Origin: Daphnia pulex
Taxonomy: Eukaryota; Arthropoda; Branchiopoda; Diplostraca; Daphniidae
DNA: 64,000 nt
Reading direction: 5' to 3'
Assembly: GCF_021134715.1 (NCBI RefSeq)
Contig: NC_060021.1
Coordinates: 1-64,000 of the forward strand
Positions 1 to 60,134 of the stretch are shown here, in pieces (the stretch's first letter is position 1; each line of letters starts with the position of its first letter). The notes under the pieces were generated by a model. The model had not been told where the DNA came from, made no database searches, and saw only the letters and a program-made list of their open reading frames with translations. The position numbers were made by a program, and so were the translations under genes.

Positions 1-27
1 TGGTGGCGCTGATAGTTCCATAACTTG

Positions 28-3000
28 CCACCAGGTGGCGCTGATTTCAACACTTAGAAAAAGGCACTTCTACTGCTCAGAACCATGTGAAACAAACATA
101 ATTCTTGATCAGAATTTCACGCTGAGCACGATGCGATCAAAATAAAATTTAGTTCCAAAACTTGCCACCAGGTGGCGCTGATTTCAATACTTAGAAACAG
201 GCACTTCTACTGCTCAGAACCATGTGAAACAAACATATTCTTGATCAGAATTTCACGCTGAGCACGATGCGATCAAATAAAATTTAGTTCCAAAACTTGC
301 CACCAGGTGGCGCTGATTTCAATACTTAGAAACAGGCACTTCTACTGCTCAGAACCATGTGAAACAAACATATTCTTGATCAGAATTTCACGCTGAGCAC
401 GATGCGATCAAAATAAAATTTAGTTCCAAAACTTGCCACCAGGTGGCGCTGATTTCAACACTTAGAAACAGGCACTTCTACTGCTCAGAACCATGTGAAA
501 CAAACATATTCTTGATCAGAATTTCACGCTGAGCACGATGCGATCAAAATAAAATTTAGTTCCAAAACTTGCCACCAGGTGGCGCTGATTTCAACACTTA
601 GAAACAGGCACTTCTACTGCTCAGAACCATGTGAAACAAACATATTCTTGATCAGAATTTCACGCTGAGCACGATGCGATCAAAATAAAATTTAGTTCCA
701 AAACTTGCCACCAGGTGGCGCTGATTTCAATACTTAGAAACAGGCACTTCTACTGCTCAGAACCATGTGAAACAAACATATTCTTGATCAGAATTTCACG
801 CTGAGCACGATGCGATCAAAATAAAATTTAGTTCCAAAACTTGCCACCAGGTGGCGCTGATTTCAATACTTAGAAACAGGCACTTCTACTGCTCAGAACC
901 ATGTGAAACAAACATATTCTTGATCAGAATTTCACGCTGAGCACGATGCGATCAAAATAAAATTTAGTTCCAAACTTGCCACCAGGTGGCGCTGATTTCA
1001 ATACTTAGAAACAGGCACTTCTACTGCTCAGAACCATGTGAAACAAACATATTCTTGATCAGAATTTCACGCTGAGCACGATGCGATCAAAATAAAATTT
1101 AGTTCCAAAACTTGCCACCAGGTGGCGCTGATTTCAATACTTAGAAACAGGCACTTCTACTGCTCAGAACCATGTGAAACAAACATATTCTTGATCAGAA
1201 TTTCACGCTGAGCACGATGCGATCAAAATAAAATTTAGTTCCAAAACTTGCCACCAGGTGGCGCTGATTTCAACACTTAGAAACAGGCACTTCTACTGCT
1301 CAGAACCATGTGAAACAAACATATTCTTGATCAGAAATTTCACGCTGAGCACGATGCGATCAAAATAAAATTAGTTCCAAAACTTGCCACCAGGTGGCGC
1401 TGATTTCAATACTTAGAAACAGGCACTTCTACTGCTCAGAACCATGTGAAACAAACATATTCTTGATCAGAATTTCACGCTGAGCACGATGCGATCAAAA
1501 TAAAATTTAGTTCCAAAACTTGCCACCAGGTGGCGCTGATTTCAACACTTAGAAACAGGCACTTCTACTGCTCAGAACCATGTGAAACAAACATATTCTT
1601 GATCAGAATTTCACGCTGAGCACGATGCGATCAAAATAAAATTTAGTTCCAAACTTGCCACCAGGTGGCGCTGATTTCAACACTTAGAAACAGGCACTTC
1701 TACTGCTCAGAACCATGTGAAACAAACATATTCTTGATCAGAATTTCACGCTGAGCACGATGCGATCAAAATAAAATTTAGTTCCAAAACTTGCCACCAG
1801 GTGGCGCTGATTTCAACACTTAGAAACAGGCACTTCTACTGCTCACCATGTGAAACAAACATATTCTTGATCAGAATTTCACGCTGAGCACGATGCGATC
1901 AAAATAAAATTTAGTTCCAAAACTTGCCACCAGGTGGCGCTGATTTCAACACTTAGAAACAGGCACTTCTACTGCTCAGAACCATGTGAAACAAACATAT
2001 TCTTGATCAGAATTTCACGCTGAGCACGATGCGATCAAAATAAAATTTAGTTCCAAAACTTGCCACCAGGTGGCGCTGATTTCAATACTTAGAAACAGGC
2101 ACTTCTACTGCTCAGAACCATGTGAAACAAACATATTCTTGATCAGAATTTCACGCTGAGCACGATGCGATCAAAATAAAATTTAGTTCCAAAACTTGCC
2201 ACCAGGTGGCGCTGATTTCAATACTTAGAAACAGGCACTTCTACTGCTCAGAACCATGTGAAACAAACATATTCTTGATCAGAATTTCACGCTGAGCACG
2301 ATGCGATCAAAATAAAATTTAGTTCCAAAACTTGCCACCAGGTGGCGCTGATTTCAATACTTAGAAACAGGCACTTCTACTGCTCAGAACCATGTGAAAC
2401 AAACATATTCTTGATCAGAGAATTTCACGCTGAGCACGATGCGATCAAAATAAAATTTAGTTCCAAAACTTGCCACCAGGTGGCGCTGATTTCAATACTT
2501 AGAAACAGGCACTTCTACTGCTCAGAACCATGTGAAACAAACATATTCTTGATCAGAATTTCACGCTGAGCACGATGCGATCAAAATAAAATTTAGTTCC
2601 AAAACTTGCCACCAGGTGGCGCTGATAGTTCCATAACTTGCCACCAGGTGGCGCTGATTTCAACACTTAGAAAAAGGCACTTCTACTGCTCAGAACCATG
2701 TGAAACAAACATATTCTTGATCAGAATTTCACGCTGAGCACGATGCGATCAAAATAAAATTTAGTTCCAAAACCTGCCACCAGGTGGCGCTGATTTCAAT
2801 ACTTAGAAACAGGCACTTCTACTGCTCAGAACCATGTGAAACAAAGATATTCTTGATCAGAATTTCACGCTGAGCACGATGCGATCAAAATAAAATTTAG
2901 TTCCAAAACTTGCCACCAGGTGGCGCTGATTTCAATACTTAGAAACAGGCACTTCTACTGCTCAGAACCATGTGAAACAAACATATTCTTGATCAGAATT

Positions 3001-6000
3001 TCACGCTGAGCACGATGCGATCAAAATAAAATTTAGTTCCAAAACTTGCCACCAGGTGGCGCTGATTTCAATACTTAGAAACAGGCACTTCTACTGCTCA
3101 GAACCATGTGAAACAAACATATTCTTGATCAGAATTTCACGCTGAGCACGATGCGATCAAAATAAAATTTAGTTCCAAAACTTGCCACCAGGTGGCGCTG
3201 ATTTCAATACTTAGAAACAGGCACTTCTACTGCTCAGAACCATGTGAAACAAACATATTCTTGATCAGAATTTCACGCTGAGCACGATGCGATCAAAATA
3301 AAATTTAGTTCCAAAACTTGCCACCAGGTGGCGCTGATTTCAACACTTAGAAACAGGCACTTCTACTGCTCAGAACCATGTGAAACAAACATATTCTTGA
3401 TCAGAATTTCACGCTGAGCACGATGCGATCAAAATAAAATTTAGTTCCAAAACTTGCCACCAGGTGGCGCTGATTTCAACACTTAGAAACAGGCACTTCT
3501 ACTGCTCAGAACCATGTGAAACAAACATATTCTTGATCAGAATTTCACGCTGAGCACGATGCGATCAAAATAAAATTTAGTTCCAAAACTTGCCACCAGG
3601 TGGCGCTGATTTCAATACTTAGAAACAGGCACTTCTACTGCTCAGAACCATGTGAAACAAACATATTCTTGATCAGAATTTCACGCTGAGCACGATGCGA
3701 TCAAAATAAAATTTAGTTCCAAAACTTGCCACCAGGTGGCGCTGATTTCAACACTTAGAAACAGGCACTTCTACTGCTCAGAACCATGTGAAACAAACAT
3801 ATTCTTGATCAGAATTTCACGCTGAGCACGATGCGATCAAAATAAAATTTAGTTCCAAAACTTGCCACCAGGTGGCGCTGATTTCAACACTTAGAAACAG
3901 GCACTTCTACTGCTCAGAACCATGTGAAACAAACATATTCTTGATCAGAATTTCACGCTGAGCACGATGCGATCAAAATAAAATTTAGTTCCAAAACTTG
4001 CCACCAGGTGGCGCTGATTTCAACACTTAGAAACAGGCACTTCTACTGCTCAGAACCATGTGAAACAAACATATTCTTGATCAGAATTTCACGCTGAGCA
4101 CGATGCGATCAAAATAAAATTTAGTTCCAAAACTTGCCACCAGGTGGCGCTGATTTCAACACTTAGAAAAAGGCACTTCTACTGCTCAGAACCATGTGAA
4201 ACAAACATATTCTTGATCAGAATTTCACGCTGAGCACGATGCGATCAAAATAAAATTTAGTTCCAAAACTTGCCACCAGGTGGCGCTGATAGTTCCAAAA
4301 CTTGCCACCAGGTGGCGCTGATTTCAACACTTAGAAACAGGCACTTCTACTGCTCAGAACCATGTGAAACAAACATATTCTTGATCAGAATTTCACGCTG
4401 AGCACGATGCGATCAAAATAAAATTTAGTTCCAAAACTTGCCACCAGGTGGCGCTGATTTCAATACTTAGAAACAGGCACTTCTACTGCTCAGAACCATG
4501 TGAAACAAACATATTCTTGATCAGAATTTCACGCTGAGCACGATGCGATCAAAATAAAATTTAGTTCCAAAACTTGCCACCAGGTGGCGCTGATTTCAAT
4601 ACTTAGAAACAGGCACTTCTACTGCTCAGAACCATGTGAAACAAACATATTCTTGATCAGAATTTCACGCTGAGCACGATGCGATCAAAATAAAATTTAG
4701 TTCCAAAACTTGCCACCAGGTGGCGCTGATTTCAACACTTAGAAACAGGCACTTCTACTGCTCAGAACCATGTGAAACAAACATATTCTTGATCAGAATT
4801 TCACGCTGAGCACGATGCGATCAAAATAAAATTTAGTTCCAAAACTTGCCACCAGGTGGCGCTGATTTCAATACTTAGAAACAGGCACTTCTACTGCTCA
4901 GAACCATGTGAAACAAACATATTCTTGATCAGAATTTCACGCTGAGCACGATGCGATCAAAATAAAATTTAGTTCCAAAACTTGCCACCAGGTGGCGCTG
5001 ATTTCAATACTTAGAAACAGGCACTTCTACTGCTCAGAACCATGTGAAACAAACATATTCTTGATCAGAATTTTACGCTGAGCACGATGCGATCAAAATA
5101 AAATTTAGTTCCAAAACTTGCCACCAGGTGGCGCTGATTTCAATACTTAGAAACAGGCACTTCTACTGCTCAGAACCATGTGAAACAAACATATTCTTGA
5201 TCAGAATTTCACGCTGAGCACGATGCGATCAAAATAAAATTTAGTTCCAAAACTTGCCACCAGGTGGCGCTGATTTCAATACTTAGAAACAGGCACTTCT
5301 ACTGCTCAGAACCATGTGAAACAAACATATTCTTGATCAGAATTTCACGCTGAGCACGATGCGATCAAAATAAAATTTAGTTCCAAAACTTGCCACCAGG
5401 TGGCGCTGATTTCAATACTTAGAAACAGGCACTTCTACTGCTCAGAACCATGTGAAACAAACATATTCTTGATCAGAATTTCACGCTGAGCACGATGCGA
5501 TCAAAATAAAATTTAGTTCCAAAACTTGCCACCAGGTGGCGCTGATTTCAATACTTAGAAACAGGCACTTCTACTGCTCAGAACCATGTGAAACAAACAT
5601 ATTCTTGATCAGAATTTTACGCTGAGCACGATGCGATCAAAATAAAATTTAGTTCCAAAACTTGCCACCAGGTGGCGCTGATTTCAATACTTAGAAACAG
5701 GCACTTCTACTGCTCAGAACCATGTGAAACAAACATATTCTTGATCAGAATTTTACGCTGAGCACGATGCGATCAAAATAAAATTTAGTTCCAAAACTTG
5801 CCACCAGGTGGCGCTGATTTCAATACTTAGAAACAGGCACTTCTACTGCTCAGAACCATGTGAAACAAACATATTCTTGATCAGAATTTCACGCTGAGCA
5901 CGATGCGATCAAAATAAAATTTAGTTCCAAAACCTGCCACCAGGTGGCGCTGATTTCAATACTTAGAAACAGGCACTTCTACTGCTCAGAACCATGTGAA

Positions 6001-9000
6001 ACAAAGATATTCTTGATCAGAATTTCACGCTGAGCACGATGCGATCAAAATAAAATTTAGTTCCAAAACTTGCCACCAGGTGGCGCTGATTTCAATACTT
6101 AGAAACAGGCACTTCTACTGCTCAGAACCATGTGAAACAAACATATTCTTGATCAGAATTTCACGCTGAGCACGATGCGATCAAAATAAAATTTAGTTCC
6201 AAAACTTGCCACCAGGTGGCGCTGATTTCAACACTTAGAAAAAGGCACTTCTACTGCTCAGAACCATGTGAAACAAACATATTCTTGATCAGAATTTCAC
6301 GCTGAGCACGATGCGATCAAAATAAAATTTAGTTCCAAAACTTGCCACCAGGTGGCGCTGATAGTTCCAAAACTTGCCACCAGGTGGCGCTGATTTCAAC
6401 ACTTAGAAACAGGCACTTCTACTGCTCAGAACCATGTGAAACAAACATATTCTTGATCAGAATTTCACGCTGAGCACGATGCGATCAAAATAAAATTTAG
6501 TTCCAAAACTTGCCACCAGGTGGCGCTGATAGTTCCAAAACTTGCCACCAGGTGGCGCTGATTTCAACACTTAGAAAAAGGCACTTCTACTGCTCAGAAC
6601 CATGTGAAACAAACATATTCTTGATCAGAATTTCACGCTGAGCACGATGCGATCAAAATAAAATTTAGTTCCAAAACTTGCCACCAGGTGGCGCTGATTT
6701 CAACACTTAGAAACAGGCACTTCTACTGCTCAGAACCATGTGAAACAAACATATTCTTGATCAGAATTTCACGCTGAGCACGATGCGATCAAAATAAAAT
6801 TTAGTTCCAAAACTTGCCACCAGGTGGCGCTGATTTCAACACTTAGAAACAGGCACTTCTACTGCTCAGAACCATGTGAAACAAACATATTCTTGATCAG
6901 AATTTCACGCTGAGCACGATGCGATCAAAATAAAATTTAGTTCCAAAACTTGCCACCAGGTGGCGCTGATAGTTCCAAAACTTGCCACCAGGTGGCGCTG
7001 ATTTCAACACTTAGAAAAAGGCACTTCTACTGCTCAGAACCATGTGAAACAAACATATTCTTGATCAGAATTTCACGCTGAGCACGATGCGATCAAAATA
7101 AAATTTAGTTCCAAAACTTGCCACCAGGTGGCGCTGATTTCAATACTTAGAAACAGGCACTTCTACTGCTCAGAACCATGTGAAACAAACATATTCTTGA
7201 TCAGAATTTCACGCTGAGCACGATGCGATCAAAATAAAATTTAGTTCCAAAACTTGCCACCAGGTGGCGCTGATTTCAATACTTAGAAACAGGCACTTCT
7301 ACTGCTCAGAACCATGTGAAACAAACATATTCTTGATCAGAATTTCACGCTGAGCACGATGCGATCAAAATAAAATTTAGTTCCAAAACTTGCCACCAGG
7401 TGGCGCTGATAGTTCCAAAACTTGCCACCAGGTGGCGCTGATTTCAACACTTAGAAACAGGCACTTCTACTGCTCAGAACCATGTGAAACAAACATATTC
7501 TTGATCAGAATTTCACGCTGAGCACGATGCGATCAAAATAAAATTTAGTTCCAAAACTTGCCACCAGGTGGCGCTGATAGTTCCAAAACTTGCCACCAGG
7601 TGGCGCTGATTTCAACACTTAGAAAAAGGCACTTCTACTGCTCAGAACCATGTGAAACAAACATATTCTTGATCAGAATTTCACGCTGAGCACGATGCGA
7701 TCAAAATAAAATTTAGTTCCAAAACTTGCCACCAGGTGGCGCTGATTTCAACACTTAGAAACAGGCACTTCTACTGCTCAGAACCATGTGAAACAAACAT
7801 ATTCTTGATCAGAATTTCACGCTGAGCACGATGCGATCAAAATAAAATTTAGTTCCAAAACTTGCCACCAGGTGGCGCTGATTTCAACACTTAGAAACAG
7901 GCACTTCTACTGCTCAGAACCATGTGAAACAAACATATTCTTGATCAAAATTTCACGCTGAGCACGATGCGATCAAAATAAAATTTAGTTCCAAAACTTG
8001 CCACCAGGTGGCGCTGATAGTTCCAAAACTTGCCACCAGGTGGCGCTGATTTCAATACTTAGAAACAGGCACTTCTACTGCTCAGAACCATGTGAAACAA
8101 ACATATTCTTGATCAGAATTTCACGCTGAGCACGATGCGATCAAAATAAAATTTAGTTCCAAAACTTGCCACCAGGTGGCGCTGATAGTTCAAAAACTTG
8201 CCACCAGGTGGCGCTGATTTCAACACTTAGAAAAAGGCACTTCTACTGCTCAGAACCATGTGAAACAAACATATTCTTGATCAGAATTTCACGCTGAGCA
8301 CGATGCGATCAAAATAAAATTTAGTTCCAAAACTTGCCACCAGGTGGCGCTGATTTCAACACTTAGAAACAGGCACTTCTACTGCTCAGAACCATGTGAA
8401 ACAAACATATTCTTGATCAGAATTTCACGCTGAGCACGATGCGATCAAAATAAAATTTAGTTCCAAAACTTGCCACCAGGTGGCGCTGATTTCAACACTT
8501 AGAAAAAGGCACTTCTACTGCTCAGAACCATGTGAAACAAACATATTCTTGATCAGAATTTCACGCTGAGCACGATGCGATCAAAATAAAATTTAGTTCC
8601 AAAACTTGCCACCAGGTGGCGCTGATAGTTCCATAACTTGCCACCAGGTGGCGCTGATTTCAACACTTAGAAAAAGGCACTTCTACTGCTCAGAACCATG
8701 TGAAACAAACATATTCTTGATCAGAATTTCACGCTGAGCACGATGCGATCAAAATAAAATTTAGTTCCAAAACTTGCCACCAGGTGGCGCTGATTTCAAC
8801 ACTTAGAAACAGGCACTTCTACTGCTCAGAACCATGTGAAACAAACATATTCTTGATCAGAATTTCACGCTGAGCACGATGCGATCAAAATAAAATTTAG
8901 TTCCAAAACTTGCCACCAGGTGGCGCTGATTTCAATACTTAGAAACAGGCACTTCTACTGCTCAGAACCATGTGAAACAAACATATTCTTGATCAGAATT

Positions 9001-12000
9001 TCACGCTGAGCACGATGCGATCAAAATAAAATTTAGTTCCAAAACTTGCCACCAGGTGGCGCTGATTTCAATACTTAGAAACAGGCACTTCTACTGCTCA
9101 GAACCATGTGAAACAAACATATTCTTGATCAGAATTTCACGCTGAGCACGATGCGATCAAAATAAAATTTAGTTCCAAAACTTGCCACCAGGTGGCGCTG
9201 ATTTCAACACTTAGAAAAAGGAACTTCTACTGCTCACAACCATGTGAAACAAACATATTCTTGATCAGAATTTCACGCTGAGCACGATGCGATCAAAATA
9301 AAATTTAGTTCCAAAACTTGCCACCAGGTGGCGCTGATTTCAATACTTAGAAACAGGCACTTCTACTGCTCAGAACCATGTGAAACAAACATATTCTTGA
9401 TCAGAATTTCACGCTGAGCACGATGCGATCAAAATAAAATTTAGTTCCAAAACTTGCCACCAGGTGGCGCTGATTTCAATACTTAGAAACAGGCACTTCT
9501 ACTGCTCAGAACCATGTGAAACAAACATATTCTTGATCAGAATTTCACGCTGAGCACGATGCGATCAAAATAAAATTTAGTTCCAAAACTTGCCACCAGG
9601 TGGCGCTGATTTCAATACTTAGAAACAGGCACTTCTACTGCTCAGAACCATGTGAAACAAACATATTCTTGATCAGAATTTCACGCTGAGCACGATGCGA
9701 TCAAAATAAAATTTAGTTCCAAAACTTGCCACCAGGTGGCGCTGATTTCAATACTTAGAAACAGGCACTTCTACTGCTCAGAACCATGTGAAACAAACAT
9801 ATTCTTGATCAGAATTTTACGCTGAGCACGATGCGATCAAAATAAAATTTAGTTCCAAAACTTGCCACCAGGTGGCGCTGATTTCAATACTTAGAAACAG
9901 GCACTTCTACTGCTCAGAACCATGTGAAACAAACATATTCTTGATCAGAATTTCACGCTGAGCACGATGCGATCAAAATAAAATTTAGTTCCAAAACCTG
10001 CCACCAGGTGGCGCTGATTTCAATACTTAGAAACAGGCACTTCTACTGCTCAGAACCATGTGAAACAAAGATATTCTTGATCAGAATTTCACGCTGAGCA
10101 CGATGCGATCAAAATAAAATTTAGTTCCAAAACTTGCCACCAGGTGGCGCTGATTTCAATACTTAGAAACAGGCACTTCTACTGCTCAGAACCATGTGAA
10201 ACAAACATATTCTTGATCAGAATTTCACGCTGAGCACGATGCGATCAAAATAAAATTTAGTTCCAAAACTTGCCACCAGGTGGCGCTGATTTCAATACTT
10301 AGAAACAGGCACTTCTACTGCTCAGAACCATGTGAAACAAACATATTCTTGATCAGAATTTCACGCTGAGCACGATGCGATCAAAATAAAATTTAGTTCC
10401 AAAACTTGCCACCAGGTGGCGCTGATTTCAACACTTAGAAAAAGGCACTTCTACTGCTCAGAACCATGTGAAACAAACATATTCTTGATCAGAATTTCAC
10501 GCTGAGCACGATGCGATCAAAATAAAATTTAGTTCCAAAACTTGCCACCAGGTGGCGCTGATAGTTCCAAAACTTGCCACCAGGTGGCGCTGATTTCAAC
10601 ACTTAGAAACAGGCACTTCTACTGCTCAGAACCATGTGAAACAAACATATTCTTGATCAGAATTTCACGCTGAGCACGATGCGATCAAAATAAAATTTAG
10701 TTCCAAAACTTGCCACCAGGTGGCGCTGATAGTTCCAAAACTTGCCACCAGGTGGCGCTGATTTCAACACTTAGAAAAAGGCACTTCTACTGCTCAGAAC
10801 CATGTGAAACAAACATATTCTTGATCAGAATTTCACGCTGAGCACGATGCGATCAAAATAAAATTTAGTTCCAAAACTTGCCACCAGGTGGCGCTGATTT
10901 CAACACTTAGAAAAAGGCACTTCTACTGCTCAGAACCATGTGAAACAAACATATTCTTGATCAGAATTTCACGCTGAGCACGATGCGATCAAAATAAAAT
11001 TTAGTTCCAAAACTTGCCACCAGGTGGCGCTGATAGTTCCAAAACTTGCCACCAGGTGGCGCTGATTTCAACACTTAGAAAAAGGCACTTCTACTGCTCA
11101 GAACCATGTGAAACAAACATATTCTTGATCAGAATTTCACGCTGAGCACGATGCGATCAAAATAAAATTTAGTTCCAAAACTTGCCACCAGGTGGCGCTG
11201 ATTTCAATACTTAGAAACAGGCACTTCTACTGCTCAGAACCATGTGAAACAAACATATTCTTGATCAGAATTTCACGCTGAGCACGATGCGATCAAAATA
11301 AAATTTAGTTCCAAAACTTGCCACCAGGTGGCGCTGATTTCAATACTTAGAAACAGGCACTTCTACTGCTCAGAACCATGTGAAACAAACATATTCTTGA
11401 TCAGAATTTTACGCTGAGCACGATGCGATCAAAATAAAATTTAGTTCCAAAACTTGCCACCAGGTGGCGCTGATTTCAATACTTAGAAACAGGCACTTCT
11501 ACTGCTCAGAACCATGTGAAACAAACATATTCTTGATCAGAATTTCACGCTGAGCACGATGCGATCAAAATAAAATTTAGTTCCAAAACCTGCCACCAGG
11601 TGGCGCTGATTTCAATACTTAGAAACAGGCACTTCTACTGCTCAGAACCATGTGAAACAAACATATTCTTGATCAGAATTTCACGCTGAGCACGATGCGA
11701 TCAAAATAAAATTTAGTTCCAAAACTTGCCACCAGGTGGCGCTGATTTCAACACTTAGAAAAAGGCACTTCTACTGCTCAGAACCATGTGAAACAAACAT
11801 ATTCTTGATCAGAATTTCACGCTGAGCACGATGCGATCAAAATAAAATTTAGTTCCAAAACTTGCCACCAGGTGGCGCTGATAGTTCCAAAACTTGCCAC
11901 CAGGTGGCGCTGATTTCAACACTTAGAAACAGGCACTTCTACTGCTCAGAACCATGTGAAACAAACATATTCTTGATCAGAATTTCACGCTGAGCACGAT

Positions 12001-15000
12001 GCGATCAAAATAAAATTTAGTTCCAAAACTTGCCACCAGGTGGCGCTGATAGTTCCAAAACTTGCCACCAGGTGGCGCTGATTTCAACACTTAGAAAAAG
12101 GCACTTCTACTGCTCAGAACCATGTGAAACAAACATATTCTTGATCAGAATTTCACGCTGAGCACGATGCGATCAAAATAAAATTTAGTTCCAAAACTTG
12201 CCACCAGGTGGCGCTGATTTCAACACTTAGAAACAGGCACTTCTACTGCTCAGAACCATGTGAAACAAACATATTCTTGATCAGAATTTCACGCTGAGCA
12301 CGATGCGATCAAAATAAAATTTAGTTCCAAAACTTGCCACCAGGTGGCGCTGATAGTTCCAAAACTTGCCACCAGGTGGCGCTGATTTCAACACTTAGAA
12401 AAAGGCACTTCTACTGCTCAGAACCATGTGAAACAAACATATTCTTGATCAGAATTTCACGCTGAGCACGATGCGATCAAAATAAAATTTAGTTCCAAAA
12501 CTTGCCACCAGGTGGCGCTGATTTCAACACTTAGAAACAGGCACTTCTACTGCTCAGAACCATGTGAAACAAACATATTCTTGATCAGAATTTCACGCTG
12601 AGCACGATGCGATCAAAATAAAATTTAGTTCCAAAACTTGCCACCAGGTGGCGCTGATTTCAACACTTAGAAAAAGGAACTTCTACTGCTCACAACCATG
12701 TGAAACAAACATATTCTTGATCAGAATTTCACGCTGAGCACGATGCGATCAAAATAAAATTTAGTTCCAAAACTTGCCACCAGGTGGCGCTGATAGTTCC
12801 AAAACTTGCCACCAGGTGGCGCTGATTTCAACACTTAGAAAAAGGCACTTCTACTGCTCAGAACCATGTGAAACAAACATATTCTTGATCAGAATTTCAC
12901 GCTGAGCACGATGCGATCAAAATAAAATTTAGTTCCAAAACTTGCCACCAGGTGGCGCTGATTTCAACACTTAGAAACAGGCACTTCTACTGCTCAGAAC
13001 CATGTGAAACAAACATATTCTTGATCAGAATTTCACGCTGAGCACGATGCGATCAAAATAAAATTTAGTTCCAAAACTTGCCACCAGGTGGCGCTGATTT
13101 CAACACTTAGAAAAAGGCACTTCTACTGCTCAGAACCATGTGAAACAAACATATTCTTGATCAGAATTTCACGCTGAGCACGATGCGATCAAAATAAAAT
13201 TTAGTTCCAAAACTTGCCACCAGGTGGCGCTGATAGTTCCAAAACTTGCCACCAGGTGGCGCTGATTTCAACACTTAGAAAAAGGCACTTCTACTGCTCA
13301 GAACCATGTGAAACAAACATATTCTTGATCAGAATTTCACGCTGAGCACGATGCGATCAAAATAAAATTTAGTTCCAAAACTTGCCACCAGGTGGCGCTG
13401 ATTTCAACACTTAGAAACAGGCACTTCTACTGCTCAGAACCATGTGAAACAAACATATTCTTGATCAGAATTTCACGCTGAGCACGATGCGATCAAAATA
13501 AAATTTAGTTCCAAAACTTGCCACCAGGTGGCGCTGATAGTTCCAAAACTTGCCACCAGGTGGCGCTGATTTCAACACTTAGAAAAAGGCACTTCTACTG
13601 CTCAGAACCATGTGAAACAAACATATTCTTGATCAGAATTTCACGCTGAGCACGATGCGATCAAAATAAAATTTAGTTCCAAAACTTGCCACCAGGTGGC
13701 GCTGATTTCAACACTTAGAAACAGGCACTTCTACTGCTCAGAACCATGTGAAACAAACATATTCTTGATCAGAATTTCACGCTGAGCACGATGCGATCAA
13801 AATAAAATTTAGTTCCAAAACTTGCCACCAGGTGGCGCTGATTTCAACACTTAGAAAAAGGCACTTCTACTGCTCAGAACCATGTGAAACAAACATATTC
13901 TTGATCAGAATTTCACGCTGAGCACGATGCGATCAAAATAAAATTTAGTTCCAAAACTTGCCACCAGAAGGCGCTGATAGTTCCAAAACTTGCCACCAGG
14001 TGGCGCTGATTTCAACACTTAGAAAAAGGCACTTCTACTGCTCAGAACCATGTGAAACAAACATATTCTTGATCAGAATTTCACGCTGAGCACGATGCGA
14101 TCAAAATAAAATTTAGTTCCAAAACTTGCCACCAGGTGGCGCTGATAGTTCCAAAACTTGCCACCAGGTGGCGCTGATTTCAACACTTAGAAAAAGGCAC
14201 TTCTACTGCTCAGAACCATGTGAAACAAACATATTCTTGATCAGAATTTCACGCTGAGCACGATGCGATCAAAATAAAATTTAGTTCCAAAACTTGCCAC
14301 CAGGTGGCGCTGATTTCAACACTTAGAAACAGGCACTTCTACTGCTCAGAACCATGTGAAACAAACATATTCTTGATCAGAATTTCACGCTGAGCACGAT
14401 GCGATCAAAATAAAATTTAGTTCCAAAACTTGCCACCAGGTGGCGCTGATAGTTCCAAAACTTGCCACCAGGTGGCGCTGATTTCAACACTTAGAAAAAG
14501 GCACTTCTACTGCTCAGAACCATGTGAAACAAACATATTCTTGATCAGAATTTCACGCTGAGCACGATGCGATCAAAATAAAATTTAGTTCCAAAACTTG
14601 CCACCAGGTGGCGCTGATTTCAACACTTAGAAACAGGCACTTCTACTGCTCAGAACCATGTGAAACAAACATATTCTTGATCAGAATTTCACGCTGAGCA
14701 CGATGCGATCAAAATAAAATTTAGTTCCAAAACTTGCCACCAGGTGGCGCTGATAGTTCCAAAACTTGCCACCAGGTGGCGCTGATTTCAACACTTAGAA
14801 AAAGGCACTTCTACTGCTCAGAACCATGTGAAACAAACATATTCTTGATCAGAATTTCACGCTGAGCACGATGCGATCAAAATAAAATTTAGTTCCAAAA
14901 CTTGCCACCAGATGGCGCTGATTTCAACACTTAGAAACAGGCACTTCTACTGCTCAGAACCATGTGAAACAAACATATTCTTGATCAGAATTTCACGCTG

Positions 15001-17496
15001 AGCACGATGCGATCAAAATAAAATTTAGTTCCAAAACTTGCCACCAGGTGGCGCTGATAGTTCCAAAACTTGCCACCAGGTGGCGCTGATTTCAACACTT
15101 AGAAAAAGGCACTTCTACTGCTCAGAACCATGTGAAACAAACATATTCTTGATCAGAATTTCACGCTGAGCACGATGCGATCAAAATAAAATTTAGTTCC
15201 AAAACTTGCCACCAGGTGGCGCTGATTTCAACACTTAGAAACAGGCACTTCTACTGCTCAGAACCATGTGAAACAAACATATTCTTGATCAGAATTTCAC
15301 GCTGAGCACGATGCGATCAAAATAAAATTTAGTTCCAAAACTTGCCACCAGGTGGCGCTGATTTCAACACTTAGAAAAAGGCACTTCTACTGCTCAGAAC
15401 CATGTGAAACAAACATATTCTTGATCAGAATTTCACGCTGAGCACGATGCGATCAAAATAAAATTTAGTTCCAAAACTTGCCACCAGGTGGCGCTGATAG
15501 TTCCAAAACTTGCCACCAGGTGGCGCTGATTTCAACACTTAGAAAAAGGCACTTCTACTGCTCAGAACCATGTGAAACAAACATATTCTTGATCAGAATT
15601 TCACGCTGAGCACGATGCGATCAAAATAAAATTTAGTTCCAAAACTTGCCACCAGGTGGCGCTGATTTCAACACTTAGAAACAGGCACTTCTACTGCTCA
15701 GAACCATGTGAAACAAACATATTCTTGATCAGAATTTCACGCTGAGCACGATGCGATCAAAATAAAATTTAGTTCCAAAACTTGCCACCAGGTGGCGCTG
15801 ATAGTTCCAAAACTTGCCACCAGGTGGCGCTGATTTCAACACTTAGAAAAAGGCACTTCTACTGCTCAGAACCATGTGAAACAAACATATTCTTGATCAG
15901 AATTTCACGCTGAGCACGATGCGATCAAAATAAAATTTAGTTCCAAAACTTGCCACCAGGTGGCGCTGATTTCAACACTTAGAAACAGGCACTTCTACTG
16001 CTCAGAACCATGTGAAACAAACATATTCTTGATCAGAATTTCACGCTGAGCACGATGCGATCAAAATAAAATTTAGTTCCAAAACTTGCCACCAGGTGGC
16101 GCTGATAGTTCCAAAACTTGCCACCAGGTGGCGCTGATTTCAACACTTAGAAAAAGGCACTTCTACTGCTCAGAACCATGTGAAACAAACATATTCTTGA
16201 TCAGAATTTCACGCTGAGCACGATGCGATCAAAATAAAATTTAGTTCCAAAACTTGCCACCAGGTGGCGCTGATTTCAACACTTAGAAACAGGCACTTCT
16301 ACTGCTCAGAACCATGTGAAACAAACATATTCTTGATCAGAATTTCACGCTGAGCACGATGCGATCAAAATAAAATTTAGTTCCAAAACTTGCCACCAGG
16401 TGGCGCTGATTTCAACACTTAGAAAAAGGCACTTCTACTGCTCAGAACCATGTGAAACAAACATATTCTTGATCAGAATTTCACGCTGAGCACGATGCGA
16501 TCAAAATAAAATTTAGTTCCAAAACTTGCCACCAGGTGGCGCTGATTTCAATACTTAGAAACAGGCACTTCTACTGCTCAGAACCATGTGAAACAAACAT
16601 ATTCTTGATCAGAATTTCACGCTGAGCACGATGCGATCAAAATAAAATTTAGTTCCAAAACTTGCCACCAGGTGGCGCTGATTTCAATACTTAGAAACAG
16701 GCACTTCTACTGCTCAGAACCATGTGAAACAAACATATTCTTGATCAGAATTTCACGCTGAGCACGATGCGATCAAAATAAAATTTAGTTCCAAAACTTG
16801 CCATCAGGTGGCGCTGATTTCAACACTTAGAAAAAGGCACTTCTACTGCTCAGATCCATGTGAAACAAACATATTCTTGATCAGAATTTCACGCTGAGCA
16901 CGATGCGATCAAAATAAAATTTAGTTCCAAAACTTGCCACCAGGTGGCGCTGATTTCAACACTTAGAAACAGGCACTTCTACTGCTCAGAACCATGTGAA
17001 ACAAACATATTCTTGATCAGAATTTCACGCTGAGCACGATGCGATCAAAATAAAATTTAGTTCCAAAACTTGCCACCAGGTGGCGCTGATTTCAACACTT
17101 AGAAAAAGGCACTTCTACTGCTCAGAACCATGTGAAACAAACATATTCTTGATCAGAATTTCACGCTGAGCACGATGCGATCAAAATAAAATTTAGTTCC
17201 AAAACTTGCCACCAGGTGGCGCTGATTTCAATACTTAGAAACAGGCACTTCTACTGCTCAGAACCATGTGAAACAAACATATTCTAGATCAGAATTTCAC
17301 GCTGAGCACGATGCGATCAAAATAAAATTTAGTTCCAAAACTTGCCACCAGGTGGCGCTGATTTCAATACTTAGAAACAGGCACTTCTACTGCTCAGAAC
17401 CATGTGAAACAAACATATTCTTGATCAGAATTTCACGCTGAGCACGATGCGATCAAAATAAAATTTAGTTCCAAAACTTGCCACCAGGTGGCGCTG
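28..17496 (+). promoter_or_regulatory. about 150 direct copies of a CTCF-like core motif
   Basis: Each satellite unit contains CCACCAGGTGGCGCTG; the first complete copy is at 28-43 and the last at 17481-17496. It fits the published CTCF core (CCASYAGRKGGCRS type) without mismatch, including the GGTGGCGC form reported for Drosophila CTCF. All copies point the same way. Copies with a changed core are rare: CCACCAGAAGGCGC near 13963, CCACCAGATGGCGC near 14905 and CCATCAGGTGGCGC near 16801. The total of about 150 is the unit count plus the extra copy in each 32-bp duplication, and is an estimate. Actual binding by CTCF is inference. Confidence 0.7.
6329..16120. repeat. higher-order part of the satellite with 32-bp motif duplications
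   Basis: Here units are often followed by a 32-bp partial copy running from agttccaaaacttgcc through the core to gctgat. The partial copy places two CTCF-like cores 32 bp apart. I count 28 such junctions (seen as gctgatagtt) in the whole array; 24 lie between about 6360 and 16106. Typical spacing is 304 bp (two units plus 32) or 440 bp (three units plus 32), so dimer and trimer higher-order repeats alternate. The unit just after an insertion usually carries the aaaaagg variant and the next one aaacagg. Outside this zone insertions occur at the left edge, 2622, 4289 and few other sites. Confidence 0.85.
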
Positions 17497-17532
17497 ATTT
17501 CAATACTTAGAAACAGGCACTTCTACTGCTCA

Positions 17533-19355
17533 AAATACACTCAAAAGAACCACTTTGACAAAGAGAACATGAATATTGGATATTAAATAATATAACCATG
17601 GAATTTCTTTAAAACTCAATTCAAAATTCCCTTAAGCATTAACTTTGTTATTATCTGCTTGTTTTCGCTTCGATGTTTATGAGTTTGGCAACATGGCAAG
17701 TGCTGAAGTGTTATTTGTGTAGCAGAATCAATTGGTTTTGGTAGTTGTTTGGCAGTTCATTTTCATTGGAATCAGCTAGCAGCCGGTAGCTGTATTAATG
17801 TCATTTGGTTTTCAAATCCAATTAAGTTATTATTTCGTGAGTATTAATTAGAGTTGTTCCCTGAATGGTTTTTAGAATGTAAGGTTTTTTGATCATGTGC
17901 TTTGTTGAATGTTATCAGTGTTGAGTTGACGCCTTTTCCAGATTGCAATTATTTGTGATTTTCAGTGACCAAGAACAAAATTTATTGAATCTGCATTTTC
18001 TGTTAAAGAATGCATGGATCCATGAAGACTGGATTGATTCATTTCACAATGTTCACGTGCACGGAAATTGGAATGGATTGTGCAGGGAGTATCATGCATG
18101 ACTAATTTGAGTTGCACAATACTGTTAAATTGGATACTGATCTATTGCATCATTGACTATGATTTCTCTGCAGGGTTGGATGGAGATCTGAATTTACTTA
18201 TTAATTGGCTCAACCAGATGACTTGATTGTATCGGATCCAGACAGCATGCAATTTGAGTAATTATTGATGTGTCTTTTCACCCAGTCCTACTGGTACTTT
18301 CTGTTTAGTAATTTTGATAAGCAGTTATTCTGTTTTTCTTTTCCATTTTTTTTTATTTATTTTTTATGTTTTTTAATCAGAAGGATTTAACCTGCACGAA
18401 CAAGGCATGATAGTTATTTTGTTATTAAAATCAATTAGATAGACCAAAAGAACTTATTCTTGTTATTGTTTCAGGTTAAAGACAGTGACATCGGAAGAAG
18501 AAAGCTCCTGTTTAAGTTTTATCCAATTGTATTATCCAATTGGCAATTGTCATTTTTTACCGTAATATGGCTTCGAGTTTATCTCGTGACATCCGGTATC
18601 AGATTCAGATCGTCTGCAATTGAACAAAACACGAGTGACGAGAGCGTTTTGTTTGTGTTTGTTTGCTGAAAAAAGCCTCCATTAATTGCACATAGTTTTG
18701 TTGCAAAAACCCACATGTGAACTGCTAAAACTATTGTTTTCTTTTTCAGAGGCTCGTGGAGTCCTGGTAGAGAAATTTCGCACTTCTTTATGGAACATCA
18801 TTTCTCGTGTGGTCTGCTTCCTTCACGTGGCATGGTATTCCATGGCATACCAATTCAGCTAATTCAAACATGACACGAAAATTTGCATGAAACTAGCGAG
18901 TGAACGTTGTTCTCTGTCCCAGTTCTCAAGATTGATTGCTAGGTCTAAGCGAACAAAAATGCGCTTTTCAAGTGTTGTGGGTATGTTAAGACCAGTCCTT
19001 CAACTACGGCGGTTTGCTGTCAAAAGTTGATCTTTTCTTCGAAAATTACCAATGAATTCACAGGTAAATTCGAGTGATTTTGTCTGTAACTTGTCAGTTA
19101 TTTGTTCTATTCCGTGTACATGTTGGATAACCTTAATGTTTTTCATCAAACTTACAGTCTGAGGAAACGTGAAAGTGGTGCAGCCTACCGTCAACTATTT
19201 TGTTCAAATTCATTCTATTCTACTGAATGTGCCATCGAAATTATACAGTTAACAACCAACACTAGCTTAAACTAACCTAAATTCTTCTCATGTTTTATTA
19301 GAATTAATCTTAATTATCGGCTGTTTCTTTTGGACTTGCTAGATCACCAACCCCA
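17533..19355. other. non-coding stretch, no gene recognised
   Basis: AT-rich sequence next to the satellite with no convincing coding exon. A pyrimidine tract followed by an AG acceptor near 18749 (ttctttttcag) precedes a segment starting aggctcgtggagtcctgg, which could be an exon of a non-coding transcript. Around 18894-18918 the sequence ctagcgagtgaacgttgttc resembles the right terminal repeat of the transposon at 23666-24054, so it may be an old transposon end. Confidence 0.5.
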
Positions 19356-19457
19356 GAATGGACCATTCTCTCATTCCATTTTCTAGAGAGCCTTGGATAA
19401 CTGATTTATGGCTTCATGTGTAAGTTCACTTATCATGTTACTGAACTTTCTTCGTTC
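19356..19457 (+). repeat. exon-like direct repeat, copy 1
   Basis: About 100 bp that recurs in diverged form at 20242-20338. Shared blocks include ctctcattccat, ttggataactgatt, ttcatgtgtaagttcact and ctttcttcgtt. In both copies the repeat contains a good splice donor (gtaagttcac), so it may be a duplicated exon with its intron start. No open frame is conserved. A second shared block (ccttgtttgctaa...cccttgaatctccc) follows at 19491-19530 here and at 20592-20633 in the other copy, so the duplication is larger than the best-matching core. Confidence 0.6.
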
Positions 19458-20241
19458 AAAAAGGACAAGGACTACACAGTCAACAAGATTCCTTGTTTGC
19501 TAACCCGTTGTCTGCCACCCTTGAATCTCCCTGTTTGTCAACAACCAAAAAAGAGGTTCATGTTGTGATCATAAATGGAAGTTTTGTTTACATTCAATTT
19601 AGTGAAGTTGTCATCCTAATAGCAATTTTAACATTTTTTTTGTTTCTTATTTAGATATGGCCTATAAGACCAAATGTCTGGCTGTCTCCAAAACAAGGCA
19701 ATGACCACACGTTCAACGCGGATCATTCGTTTTGTCATCGAAATTGACTCATTTTATCTTCTGGATTGCTCAGGAAACCTGATTGGCGTTACCTGTTAAC
19801 TTCATCTTGTCATGCCACTGAATTTAAATTTCGTTTACATTTTATTTCTTGATCTAGCCATTTAGGTAATGACCGGGAAGATGCGGCCTATGCATGAACA
19901 TCATTTAGGCGGCCAGCATCATTCGACTACCCAACCGAGTCTCAACACAGCACGGAGTTTTACACTTTAAATTTTGGCTGTTCGCAATTTGTGATGGCGT
20001 TTCCTTGGACGAGATATGATTTGGCGAGAAAAATATTGCGTGAGTATCTCATATTTGATCTTTATATTGTCTTTTACGTCATTGTTATTTATGAATTTAA
20101 TGTCGACGAGGTAGAGCAGGGACGTGTTTGTTTTCAATTTTTCTTTCTGTTCAAGTTTTGCGAGTATTTCAAGGACTCATCTACACTTACGTCTACCTAA
20201 TGTCTATCTAATATTTAGGGACGATTTCATGCTGTCCTTTA

Positions 20242-20338
20242 CCATGGACCAATCTCTCATTCCATCTGAGAACTTTGGATAACTGATTGGTGGTTTCATG
20301 TGTAAGTTCACTTGTCATCTTACTGATCTTTCTTCGTT
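20242..20338 (+). repeat. exon-like direct repeat, copy 2
   Basis: Diverged second copy of the segment at 19356-19457, about 886 bp downstream in the same orientation. In this copy gtaagttcac is followed 30 bp later by cttcgttgcag, which would make a very short intron if used. The companion block at 20592-20633 resembles the end of the TTAA-flanked transposon at 24312-24577 (ctaacccgttg...ctgccac in copy 1), so mobile-element sequence may have travelled with the duplication. Confidence 0.55.
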
Positions 20339-20879
20339 GCAGTCTTATATATGTTTTATAAGTATTGATCTGCACTTACGTCTATCTTATGTTTAAGAGG
20401 CAATTTCGAGTGTAGGCTATACCGATAACTGTATAATTATTCTTTTAGATCAGACATCAAGCACATTGATGACACAAATTATAAACAAGGTTACTTTTAT
20501 TTTTTTTATTTACGGGTTCCAAATTACAGGTTTCTAAATTGGCATGACAGACTTTATGAGAAGTAATGTCCTTTCAAGAAAGAAACAAGGTCCCTTGTTT
20601 GCTAATCCAATTGCTGCTACCCTTGAATCTCCCCTTTTACTTCCTTAAACGGGCCCTCTTGATTTGAGGTAATGTTTTCTGTCGCTACAATTTTTTGAAA
20701 AGTATTGTCATCCAAATTAAATGTTCTGCTTACAGGGTAATCCTTTGCTACTTATTGTGGACTTCAACCATTGCCTGGAAGCCTGTAAAGCAACCTTGAG
20801 AGCATGCTGTCATTCAAGACTGTTTAATTGTGTAGTTAGCTAAATTGCAAGTGCATATCTGGGCTCCCTTCTTTTCTGT

Positions 20880-31540: not shown

Positions 31541-31732
31541 GTAACAGGAAGATCACGAAAATAGACTTTATTGGTAGTAACCTACACAAACAGTTTAAAT
31601 GTCTTGGCTTTCATTTTACAGATCCACACATAGTTAAGATCGACATCCAGTCACAAATCCAGCAACCTGTAGAAATAAAACAAATAGTGAACAAAATGTC
31701 TATGGTGGAGAAAAATGTAGGATAACTTTGAA

Positions 31733-31803
31733 AATTCAGTATTAAAAAGCTCGTAATTTGGTAGTCAACATCATGATCTGCCAAATGTTAGTTCATCATT
31801 AAC
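31733..31803 (-). ncRNA. C/D-box snoRNA, U36/snR47-like, copy 1
   Basis: On the minus strand a C box ATGATGA (31799-31793) and a D box CTGA (31739-31736) lie about 57 nt apart. The bases just upstream of the D box, TTACGAGCTTTTTAATA, are complementary over about 12-15 nt to the conserved 18S rRNA stretch TTAAAAAGCTCGTA. By the D+5 rule the target is the first A of that AAAAA run, the site methylated by yeast snR47 (18S A619) and human SNORD36 (A668); those numbers are from memory. A possible C' box (ATGATGT) lies in the middle. It sits inside an intron of the host gene. Confidence 0.8.
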
Positions 31804-31965
31804 CCAAAACTAAACAGTAAAGAGATAAGTAGTCACCTTATGCATTTTAAGGTGATCTTTTATACTGGTGCCAATCAGCAAATAACTCGCTGAAGTTACC
31901 TAAAAATAAAAGCACAAACCATTAATCCTACATCATAAGTTAGGTATAAATAGATGCCAATTTAG

Positions 31966-32036
31966 GAGTCAGTATTAAAAAGCTCGTAATTTGGTAGTCA
32001 ACATTGCGATCTGCCAATAATTTGTTCATCACAAGC
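31966..32036 (-). ncRNA. C/D-box snoRNA, U36/snR47-like, copy 2
   Basis: Paralogue of the snoRNA at 31733-31803, 233 bp away in the previous intron. C box GTGATGA (32032-32026) and D box CTGA (31972-31969), with the same guide TTACGAGCTTTTTAATA directly upstream of the D box. The guide and the adjoining ttgactaccaaa are unchanged between the copies while the 5' half differs (atcatgatg versus atcgcaatg), as expected if only the guide is under selection. Confidence 0.8.
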
Positions 32037-32239
32037 ATAACATTTAATCAACAATGAATTCTTTTTACCTGGTTTACACACCCGATTTTAATTGATACCA
32101 GCGATGACACTTGTAACTAGAAGAGACTTTACCTAGAAAAGAAAGAGCAATTAAATAAAGAATACAGGTGGAATTGATATTAACACTTACAAATTCAGGA
32201 TTCCAATCCATTGTTGCTCATTTTGTGGATTAGGCATCT

Positions 32240-36030: not shown

Positions 36031-36437
36031 TCGTGTGCCGCTTTAATCCGACAGAATTATTCCTGTTTAGAAATATAATAAATCACATCAATCAAATCAA
36101 GCGTCAAATTAACCTGTCACTTTCTGTAAAACATGTGTTACCAATCAGACCGAAATATATTTTAAATCATTCTTCTCTCACATTGGCTCCCCCATGTGAG
36201 AATCTTCTTCTTTTTTGAGGAAGAATTCCTTAAAATGTGCAACTCAGCATCTGTTGCACAATCCAAACTGTCACGTATTATTAGAGCATAGAGCCACACC
36301 CTTGGTGGCAAACAGCGACTTCACGTCCGTTTGGTTAATTCTCGAACGTCCTGCATCGAGAACTGATTTTCACGGCGAAATATTTTGAAGATATCCGAAA
36401 GTTATTTGGTGCCGAGTCCCAGCCAAAATTGTTCGTC

Positions 36438-57775: not shown

Positions 57776-57858
57776 ACAAATAACACGTTTGTTATATTTT
57801 CGAGTTTATTCCGATTTCTGAGGAGTCTGTCGGTTGGGATTGATCAGACTCAACTCAT

Positions 57859-58383
57859 TTATCCAATTATTCGATTTCCAATAAAATCTGGGTTTGAAAA
57901 AAGATTCGCTTTGACGTCAGTAATAAGACGTTTGTTATTTTCGAGTTGTATTTTGGTGATTGCTAGCTCGTTCTGAGATTGTCGCAGTTTGGAGTTGGAG
58001 TCTATCAGTTGGTATTGTAGACGACTCAACTCATTTGCCAAGCGTTCTTTTTCCAATAAAATCTGGGTTTTTTCTTTGAATACTTTATCCATCAAATGAT
58101 GAAGACAATTATGTTGGTTCAAGTCATCATCTCCAATGGGAGTCGATAATTCATCGTTAATTGCAGGTTTGGTTGCGCAATAACGGTCAGGTATAATCAT
58201 TTTTGGGGTCACAACTGAACGCCGAGTTTGGGATTCGGTCGATCTAGTGGTGAATGCATGCAGTGCTGCGGCATACAGTTCTTTCAATGAGTCTATGAAA
58301 CTCAAGAAGAAATAAATAGCCATTTTGAAAAGCAATAAAGCACTAGCAAGTATAAGTGAAGCGACTTCCACAATTGCGATCAT
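57859..58383 (-). CDS. membrane-anchored coiled-coil N-terminal part (array member 1)
   Basis: ATG at 58383 starts MIAIVEVASLILASALLLFK, a strong N-terminal membrane helix, then LKELYAAALHAF, the family marker CATKPAINDELSTPIGDDD, and a coiled coil (KERLANELSRLQYQLIDSNS). The frame ends soon after TDVK at 57859. The bases from 57859 to 57775 still resemble coil sequence out of frame, so this is probably the 5' part of the same locus as 56090-57775 after a frame-breaking event or an unrecognised intron. It is most like a type II or tail-exposed membrane protein of unknown role. Confidence 0.55.
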   Translation of the reverse strand: MIAIVEVASLILASALLLFKMAIYFFLSFIDSLKELYAAALHAFTTRSTESQTRRSVVTPKMIIPDRYCATKPAINDELSTPIGDDDLNQHNCLHHLMDKVFKEKTQILLEKERLANELSRLQYQLIDSNSKLRQSQNELAITKIQLENNKRLITDVKANLFSNPDFIGNRIIG

Positions 58384-58903
58384 TTTTACCACTGGTAGAT
58401 TGGGTGTTGACAATCGAAAATTGCAATATTGTCTGTTGCCTATTTTCTTGCCTTTATATAGACTTGCCAGGGGAATCCTTTTTCGCACTGTCCCATTCCA
58501 CCGTTTCAATCAGATTTCTAATTATGTTTATGCAATTTAACTTTTTATTTTGATGTGTTATCATAGTTTAAGGTGTAACGGACATTGTTCAATTAGTTTG
58601 GAATCGATTGCAATTCATTTAAATATTTTAATTTCATTTTGAAATTAAGTTTATTCGGAATTCTGGTTAGGATTGAAATGTTGCCGGTCTGGACATGTCT
58701 GGAAAACGACAGGGCGCCCATAGCGGTGAATCCACAAACTAAAGAAGTATTACGTAATAGTATTACAGAATTTCTTAATTCTTATTACTTTTGTATTTTT
58801 ATGCGTTCGGTTGTACCGTGTGTATTTTAATATATTTTGAAATACGTGGGAAGAATATGTTCGTTTTTTTTTTAATGGTTAAAGTTTAGGTAGAAATTAA
58901 AGT

Positions 58904-59860: not shown

Positions 59861-59869
59861 CTGTTGCAA

Positions 59870-60130
59870 TTAAATATTTACATAAGTAAACAAACCCCGT
59901 CATATCATAAGAAGAGTTGACGTAGTAGCGGTATTAATGTAATCATTTTCAAAGTCGCATTTTAATTTCTTCCTTCCAGATTTTTTAAAAAATCTCGTCT
60001 TTGCCGCTTGATTTCGCTTCGGTATTTAATTCGGTTTGGCAACTTGACAGCATTGCCAACTCAGCCTTCGTATGGCAACATTGCGCATCTTCACTTGCTT
60101 ATTATAGATATCAATCTTCTCTGTAGGTGA
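59870..60130. other. short intergenic/leader stretch
   Basis: Probably holds the 5' exon or promoter of the coiled-coil gene on the minus strand; no site is distinct. A palindrome-like gattttttaaaaaatc lies near 59980. Confidence 0.35.
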
Positions 60131-60134
60131 TGCA

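Follow-up and report, generated by a model that had tools for sequence, protein, structure and literature searches.

The left end of the 12-Mb contig C5 of Daphnia pulex, from which we analysed a stretch of 64,000 nucleotides (the window), opens with 17.5 kb of tandem repeats carrying a motif that resembles the core binding sequence of CTCF. This raises the question of whether such an array is a platform for CTCF at a chromosome end, and with what function, or an ordinary satellite in which the motif has no role. A first-pass annotation had read the array as a possible mega-insulator. Following the satellite through the 13 contigs of the assembly, which have TTAGG telomeres, we find that it is tandem, homogeneous and mainly subtelomeric; the conservation of its core, the host CTCF and the enrichment of the motif lend partial support to the earlier reading, which had missed this subtelomeric, many-end setting. 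We propose, at a probability of about 0.5, that the array belongs to a subtelomeric satellite superfamily with a retained CTCF-type site and would form a CTCF-coated boundary.

A literature search, mostly outside subscription journals, found no paper by title or abstract on a Daphnia subtelomeric satellite or on a short CTCF-site satellite, and no match for the string AGGTGGCGC with CTCF. A term search of PMC12926508 returned no mention of 'telomer', 'centromer' or 'satellite', and the three Daphnia passages in PMC9498494 concern telomerase assays, without CTCF. A link to the mosquito satellite tapiR was considered and dropped: the literature retrieved dealt with piRNAs, in several cases those of mosquitoes, and the host is not a mosquito.

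A satellite array with uniformly oriented CTCF-like sites

The features of the array are as follows.

1..17532, + strand: array of the 136-bp satellite, at the left end of contig C5 as assembled
28..43, + strand: first full CTCF-like site, CCACCAGGTGGCGCTG
2594..2658, + strand: example of a 32-bp tandem pair, TAGTTCCAAAACTTGCCACCAGGTGGCGCTGA, two sites with starts 32 bp apart
17481..17496, + strand: innermost (last) CTCF-like site of the array

At three or fewer mismatches, the window has 151 matches to CCACCAGGTGGCGCTG, all but one of them among the array's 150 sites (the exception is at position 52777, − strand, 2 mismatches), whereas shuffled controls gave a mean of 0.16 and at most 1. All 150 array sites lie on the + strand, reading from the chromosome end inward; 147 are exact, two have one mismatch and one has two, which bears out the earlier estimate of about 150 same-direction sites. 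The claimed match to the CTCF core also stands: against CCRMYAGRTGGCGCY, a degenerate CTCF consensus, 148 of the 150 sites score 15/15 and two score 14/15. The rest of the window contains no match to CCRMYAGRTGGCGCY at 14/15 or better, and 20 simulated 64-kb sequences contained one in total.

The 136-bp periodicity, described earlier as running throughout, accounts for 116 of the 149 site-to-site steps; 27 others measure 32 bp and six measure 133–138 bp, for a mean spacing of 117 bp. Each 32-bp step is an extra piece comprising just the site and 16 adjoining bases. The units are very homogeneous (mean 99% to the consensus, 116 units), and because they are homogenized, variation within the array is uninformative as a test of constraint. 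The assembled contig stops at base 1 of the window, in the middle of a repeat unit, so the array probably extends beyond the 17.5 kb seen here.

Distribution and layering at chromosome ends

Genome-wide, exact sites number 1,763 for the 136-bp type and 605 for a 127-bp type related to it. A third, older family has 151-bp units and forms a layer of its own, which lies inward, with the younger 127- and 136-bp units outward. No gene was seen in units of 127–151 bp. The proposal to look for the satellite at other loci proved fruitful: of the 24 chromosome ends, at least 15 have copies with the motif nearby, a lower bound in that the 136- and 127-bp types were placed from the first 100 matches listed for each pattern and 20 of 70 candidates were scored in the search with the satellite unit. 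At all 15 of these ends, in a tally compiled by hand, the motif runs from the end towards the interior. The 127-bp satellite directly follows (AACCT)n at the left end of C6, the only end where satellite was seen directly beside telomere repeats; the assembled left end of C5 and right ends of C1 and C10 each fall within the 136-bp satellite. Their distance from the end varies widely: motif loci adjoin the telomere on C6 but lie about 78 kb in at the right end of C8. For the old-type exact 16-mer the list is complete: 43 sites at 14 loci, of which 11 lie within 64 kb of an end (for scale, 100 kb per end makes up 1.8% of the genome), with 27 of the 43 sites in a single C6 array. The internal exception is a set of copies within C12, at 8.19–8.21 Mb. 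A centromere role was dropped in view of the location of the arrays close to chromosome ends and, in the case of C6, beside TTAGG-type repeats, a placement that the internal copies on C12 do not follow.

Two features mark the inner flank of the window's array.

17531..17629, − strand: inverted fragment at the array's inner edge, with 77% identity to the old 151-bp family
17533..20500, + strand: subtelomeric duplicated block adjoining the array on its inner side

The motif is absent from the fragment (best score 8/15). The block is 98% identical over 2,968 bp to the block directly inside the array at the right end of C2, in mirror orientation, and pieces of it recur 97–100 kb in from the left end of C3, 62–71 kb in from the right end of C5, about 20 kb in from the right end of C1 and on C9; about positions 1505–2515 of the block as query correspond to a dispersed repeat.

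The near-identity of the C5 and C2 flanks speaks for an alternative in which unequal exchange and break-induced copying have carried an ordinary satellite from one chromosome end to another, with the CTCF match as a passenger without a role. An array-to-old-unit junction common to both ends of C10 (2 of 2 matches) and the homogeneity of the units point the same way, and uniform orientation would follow from such exchange between ends, without selection.

Retention of the core across satellite families

The unit changes greatly between families, and AGGTGGCGCTG (AGRTGGCGCTG) ties as the best conserved of 126 11-bp windows across seven units that were partly chosen by the motif itself. With a motif-free piece of the unit as query, 21 of 33 copies outside C6 score at least 13/15, compared with 1 of 4,000 random 60-mers from the window; the other 12 copies score lower, as would suit a passenger. 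Core changes fall mostly at degenerate CTCF positions: those between families at motif positions 4, 5 and 8 (C/A, C/T and G/A) still lie within the degenerate consensus, and the 127-bp type breaks it at a single strong position, where it has T in place of A (CCACTTGGTGGCGC). Against CCRMYAGRTGGCGCY, the forms of the 127- and 151-bp families each score 14/15. Because ATATTCTTG and GCACTTCTACTG are likewise conserved in most units, the retention of the motif may reflect a general conservation of boxes. Retention is lower in internal copies, of which 3 of 9 score at least 13/15, and all four inverted copies in the duplicated flank have lost the motif. The tied rank of the core, its retention in copies found independently of it, the placement of its changes and the persistence of the 32-bp extra copies all argue against a passenger, which we regard as rather unlikely.

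Relation to known systems

DXZ4 and FIRRE are mammalian X-linked CTCF tandem arrays with kilobase units at single X loci, and D4Z4 is a subtelomeric tandem array whose units carry a gene and which has a CTCF boundary role. The Daphnia arrays resemble the first two in holding many same-direction CTCF-type sites in tandem, and D4Z4 in their subtelomeric tandem arrangement. They differ from all three in that, instead of a kilobase unit at one or a few loci (3.3 kb in D4Z4, against 127–151 bp without a gene seen), a short satellite lies near at least 15 ends of a crustacean genome. Other arthropod telomere-associated satellites share with them tandem repeats near TTAGG telomeres that are homogenized between ends; to our knowledge, none has a CTCF-type site per unit. 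By analogy, the closest systems in function may be the human subtelomeric CTCF/TERRA sites, D4Z4 and DXZ4.

In humans, according to passages of PMC5727389, CTCF motifs occur on most subtelomeres, and the 17p family, in a homology block common to several ends, has two tandem motifs about 35 bp apart, within 5 kb of the telomere; mutating them lowers TERRA. Subtelomeric motifs, shared end blocks and tandem motifs are common to both species. Daphnia, however, has up to hundreds of putative sites per end, within a satellite and sometimes tens of kilobases from the telomere; in humans the motifs are described as pointing to the telomere (PMC5727389, same passages), whereas the CCACCAGGTGGCGC strand in Daphnia reads inward, although strand conventions may differ.

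This likeness suggests a further alternative, a TERRA-type promoter array in which telomere-directed transcripts would begin at the CTCF sites: the tandem human motifs affect TERRA, and the Daphnia tandem sites start 32 bp apart, with 16 bp between. The human spacing is wider, however (PMC5727389, as above), the copies at the right end of C7 are separated from the end by about 47 kb, in which eight 400-base probes contained no site, and a 328-bp satellite lies outside the array at the left ends of C2 and C10. We consider a promoter array quite improbable.

The host CTCF and other candidate readers of the core

D. pulex has a clear CTCF ortholog with 11 fingers. Of the 12 contact positions in its fingers 3–5, 11 have the human residue (4/4 in each of fingers 3 and 4, 3/4 in finger 5); in fingers 6–7 this holds for 3 of 8 (1/4 and 2/4). 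A host CTCF with another specificity, one of the results named at the outset as refuting the CTCF reading, is not what these core fingers predict, as far as sequence tells; we consider binding of the satellite sites by host CTCF reasonably probable. Across the genome, CCRMYAGATGGCGCY has 116 matches, compared with one each for its reversed and shuffled versions; among 100 matches listed, 33 lie in satellite and 10 in paired repeats. Some form of the motif is enriched genome-wide, partly through these satellites.

The core might instead be bound by another protein, of YY1/Pho type or another zinc-finger class, with the array as that factor's platform. ATGGC, the YY1/Pho core, occurs in the old form AGATGGCGCTG, and the genome yields at least 138 C2H2 matches; but the commonest forms (the 1,763 and 605 copies) have GGTGGC, without the YY1 core, and the CTCF consensus accepts A as well as G at the discriminating position, leaving this a very unlikely account. 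In the 136-bp type, GCCACCAGGTGGC is a palindrome, with 13 bp forming a perfect inverted repeat centred on one base. A role for it as a hairpin, as a dimer site or in recombination signalling is rejected on the sequence of the other families: the left arm is lost in the older 151-bp family (GACAATAGATGGCGC) and partly mismatched in the 127-bp family, and the right side is kept.

A proposed CTCF-coated boundary

In the CTCF-based explanation that we favour, the units of a subtelomeric superfamily of D. pulex would have undergone repeated replacement and moved from one chromosome end to another, with most keeping a CTCF-type site throughout. Host CTCF would bind many array sites through fingers 3–7, and the resulting dense coat would separate the chromatin next to the telomere from the first genes. 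Such a boundary would keep terminal heterochromatin from spreading and/or determine transcription or the position of cohesin near the telomere; human subtelomeric CTCF sites offer a parallel. We hold the boundary function more tentatively than the binding, at somewhat less than even odds, and any insulator or TERRA-promoter function is one that we infer.

The one-directional barrier is the weakest step, because fly CTCF boundaries lack clear directionality. The uniform direction on which the first-pass annotation built its loop barrier was confirmed in the array and at the other ends, but the barrier itself is weakened by passages of PMC7880997, in which fly CTCF boundaries are without clear directionality and cohesin is not specifically colocalized with CTCF. 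The only feature found on the cohesin side is a conserved VYDF stretch of host CTCF, which with a longer query aligns with human V225–F228; Y226 and F228 are critical for the cohesin interaction of human CTCF, and flies also have a cohesin-contact stretch, yet no clear directionality (PMC7880997, same passages). A 33-residue N-terminal piece of the host protein retrieved no CTCF from the PDB, only weak, unrelated collagenase matches (E 0.3). We consider a one-way cohesin barrier unlikely, and doubtful the more sweeping picture of many chromosome ends closed off from the body of the chromosome by hundreds of inward-facing CTCF molecules on a fast-evolving satellite, with the site as its main constrained element, a barrier to cohesin and an origin separate from the human case.

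If CTCF does bind, these ends would provide a natural system with thousands of same-facing sites near arthropod chromosome ends, in which CTCF directionality outside vertebrates could be tested in one animal. It would also allow tests of subtelomeric CTCF as a recurring solution to separating telomere from chromosome, and would present a case of selection on one binding site within an otherwise turning-over satellite. Were the inward cohesin-barrier reading true, it would indicate that an arthropod, too, uses CTCF directionally.

Array and genomic setting

The left end of C5 (G000:C5:1–64000), a contig of 11,977,500 bases in an assembly of 13 contigs and 133.19 Mb (C13 having 15,333 bases), opens with a tandem satellite; the telomere repeat of the host is TTAGG.

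1–17532, + strand: satellite array of a 136-bp unit, with CCACCAGGTGGCGCTG sites

The first-pass annotation had placed about 150 motif copies here in a single direction, and a window scan bears this out, with 150 sites at up to two mismatches, 147 of them exact and all on the plus strand. Outside the array, a search of the 64-kb window at up to three mismatches returned nothing except one minus-strand match at 52777. The spacing from one site to the next is 136 bp in 116 of the 149 site-to-site steps and 32 bp in 27, the latter being additional copies of TAGTTCCAAAACTTGCCACCAGGTGGCGCTGA, the site-bearing piece; the other six measure 133–138 bp. Because base 1 lies within a repeat, the array probably continues past the assembled end of C5.

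Looked for elsewhere, as the first-pass annotation had proposed, the same satellite proves widespread: CCACCAGGTGGCGCTG occurs 808 times forward and 955 times in reverse across the genome, and the reversed pattern, used as a genome-wide control, gave 0. A related 127-bp unit (CCACTTGGTGGCGCTG), counted by an exact 25-mer, occurs 359 times forward and 246 in reverse (whole-genome control, 0). These are the young families; the old family comprises a 151-bp unit with ACAATAGATGGCGCTGA, arrayed on C6, and related single copies. At C10 left, four of six 136-bp units read (stretch L072) carry CCACTAGATGGCGCT and two the common form, and 31 CCR...AGATGGCGCY sites lie at 18.6–51.8 kb among the matches listed.

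Arrays stand at at least nine ends (right ends of C1, C2, C3 and C10; left ends of C2, C5, C6, C7 and C10). C7 right has five full 136-bp units within 13.4 kb among the matches listed, their extent being uncertain, and five further ends have one or two old copies (C4, C9 and C12 left; C8 and C9 right). In all 15 ends with motif-bearing copies the motif reads inward, as tallied by hand from genome matches; from the matches listed, 15 is a lower bound. A single old copy at C5 right, in the usual orientation with a degenerate motif (10/15), was left out of the 15. Of the other nine ends, C1, C3, C8 and C11 left were read over the outer 10 kb and C4, C5, C6, C11 and C12 right over the outer 1 kb; near C5 right, coverage also took in five stretches of 400 bases and two of 60, and at C3 left one of 60. 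Exact old-type sites (n = 43, the complete list, 27 of them from one C6 array) fall into 14 loci. Eleven of these are no more than 64 kb from an end; the exceptions are C4 at 1.36 Mb, C11 at 5.82 Mb and C12 at 8.21 Mb. Mid-chromosome, C12:8192010–8204673 holds 136- and ~127-bp units adjoined by old copies, which may reflect an old end fusion, transposition or misassembly.

Layering and sequence exchange between chromosome ends

As a composite of several ends, the inward order is telomere, a 328-bp satellite (some ends), young 127/136-bp array and old copies. The ends with the 328-bp satellite are C2, C9 and C10 left.

L022 1–10000; L028 8584–10000; L029 8750–10000: 327–328-bp satellite near chromosome ends

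Its unit in L028 contains TTAGG repeats. At C6 left, (AACCT)n passes directly into a 127-bp array, behind a run of N, with the 151-bp array deeper, at 13.5–17.6 kb. Old copies mark the inner array edge on C1 right, C3 right, C2 left, C7 left and C10 left; at C7 left (L026, ~4770–4970), old units carry AGATGGCGCTG and AGGTGGCGCC within sequence that otherwise differs. The C4 left end (L024 1–10000) is a 496-bp tandem array whose unit is partly tRNA-like by eye.

With 40 of 387 candidates scored, the array flank at 17533–20500 matches sequence immediately inward of the C2 right array at 98% identity, and fragments of it recur on C9 and close to C1 right, C3 left and C5 right. A block common to several ends indicates that ends exchange sequence, which by itself also accounts for the uniform motif orientation. 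A motif carried as a passenger in an ordinary subtelomeric satellite is a serious rival explanation.

Elsewhere in the window are the following.

36339–40664: frame of 1441 codons without interruption, rich in ankyrin repeats
31731–31804 and 31963–32038, − strand: two SNORD36-type snoRNA matches whose starts are separated by 232 bp; scores exceed the gathering threshold, E-values are weak
56090–62944, − strand: open frames alike by eye, perhaps a local gene family

A C2 domain was detected in 56090–57805, and a family search of 58904–59869 found no family.

Conservation of the motif

Seven units were compared: four represent family forms, three are old single copies, and the choice was partly guided by the motif. 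Across them, AGGTGGCGCTG ties for first among 126 11-bp windows, the next separate conserved box being ATATTCTTGAT. As a control for motif-based picking, we searched the genome with a motif-free 129-bp unit piece; all 22 candidates were scored, yielding 62 matches, of which C6 accounts for 29. Of the 33 non-C6 copies, 13 have the exact 16-mer and 20 were read individually (19 fetched, one in the window). At least 13 of 15 consensus positions agree in 21 of the 33, which are non-independent (C10 left alone contributes five) and include three junction copies (L075, L076, L085) with a motif of the younger type; the background is 1 in 4,000 random 60-mers from the window. This level is reached by 18 of 20 copies near ends in the usual orientation, three of nine internal copies and none of four inverted copies in the duplicated flank.

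17531–17629: inverted old-family copy in the flank, motif below 13/15

Match to CTCF and the host protein

Scoring used the degenerate CTCF core consensus. Family differences at motif positions 4, 5 and 8 remain within it, the 127-bp type breaks it with a T at position 6, and position 1 varies between families. Genome-wide, CCRMYAGATGGCGCY has 116 matches versus one for the reversed pattern, one for a shuffled core and 0 for its reverse. Among the 100 matches listed (16 of the 116 lie outside them), 33 sit in these satellites and 10 form five inverted pairs at ~1.24-kb spacing; part of the remaining 57, four of which fall within 1.1 kb on C3, may be repeats. The pairs are probably one mobile element with CTCF-like sites in its ends.

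Outward-pointing inverted CCGCTAGATGGCGCT pairs, ~1.24 kb apart
C3:9994259/9995499
C5:226180/227419
C7:11119554/11120790
C8:12638239/12639477
C9:1336882/1338111

The host CTCF gene lies at C12:6177420 and beyond, its best exon being 68% identical to human CTCF, versus 42% for the runner-up gene (126 of 278 candidates scored); a single D. pulex CTCF gene is reported in the part of PMC2889900 consulted. Contact positions −1, 2, 3 and 6 match human at 4/4, 4/4, 3/4, 1/4 and 2/4 in fingers 3–7, respectively. A VYDF stretch aligns to human V225–F228, in which, according to an excerpt of PMC7880997, the cohesin interaction depends critically on Y226 and F228.

Discussion

Judged from motif and protein sequence, CTCF likely binds the array sites. 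CTCF and cohesin follow a convergent rule in vertebrates, and on that basis the inward-reading motifs would face cohesin coming from the chromosome interior. The motif direction is uniform at 15 of 15 ends, but the proposed one-directional loop barrier is weakened by flies, whose CTCF is described as lacking both clear directionality and specific colocalization with cohesin (PMC7880997, in part).

Judged by titles and abstracts, our literature search found no paper on a Daphnia subtelomeric satellite or on a short satellite with CTCF sites. By analogy with human 17p-type subtelomeric sites (PMC5727389, in the portion consulted), a boundary or telomere-side transcription role would be most plausible. 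CTCF sites at chromosome ends are already known; what would be new here is their satellite form.
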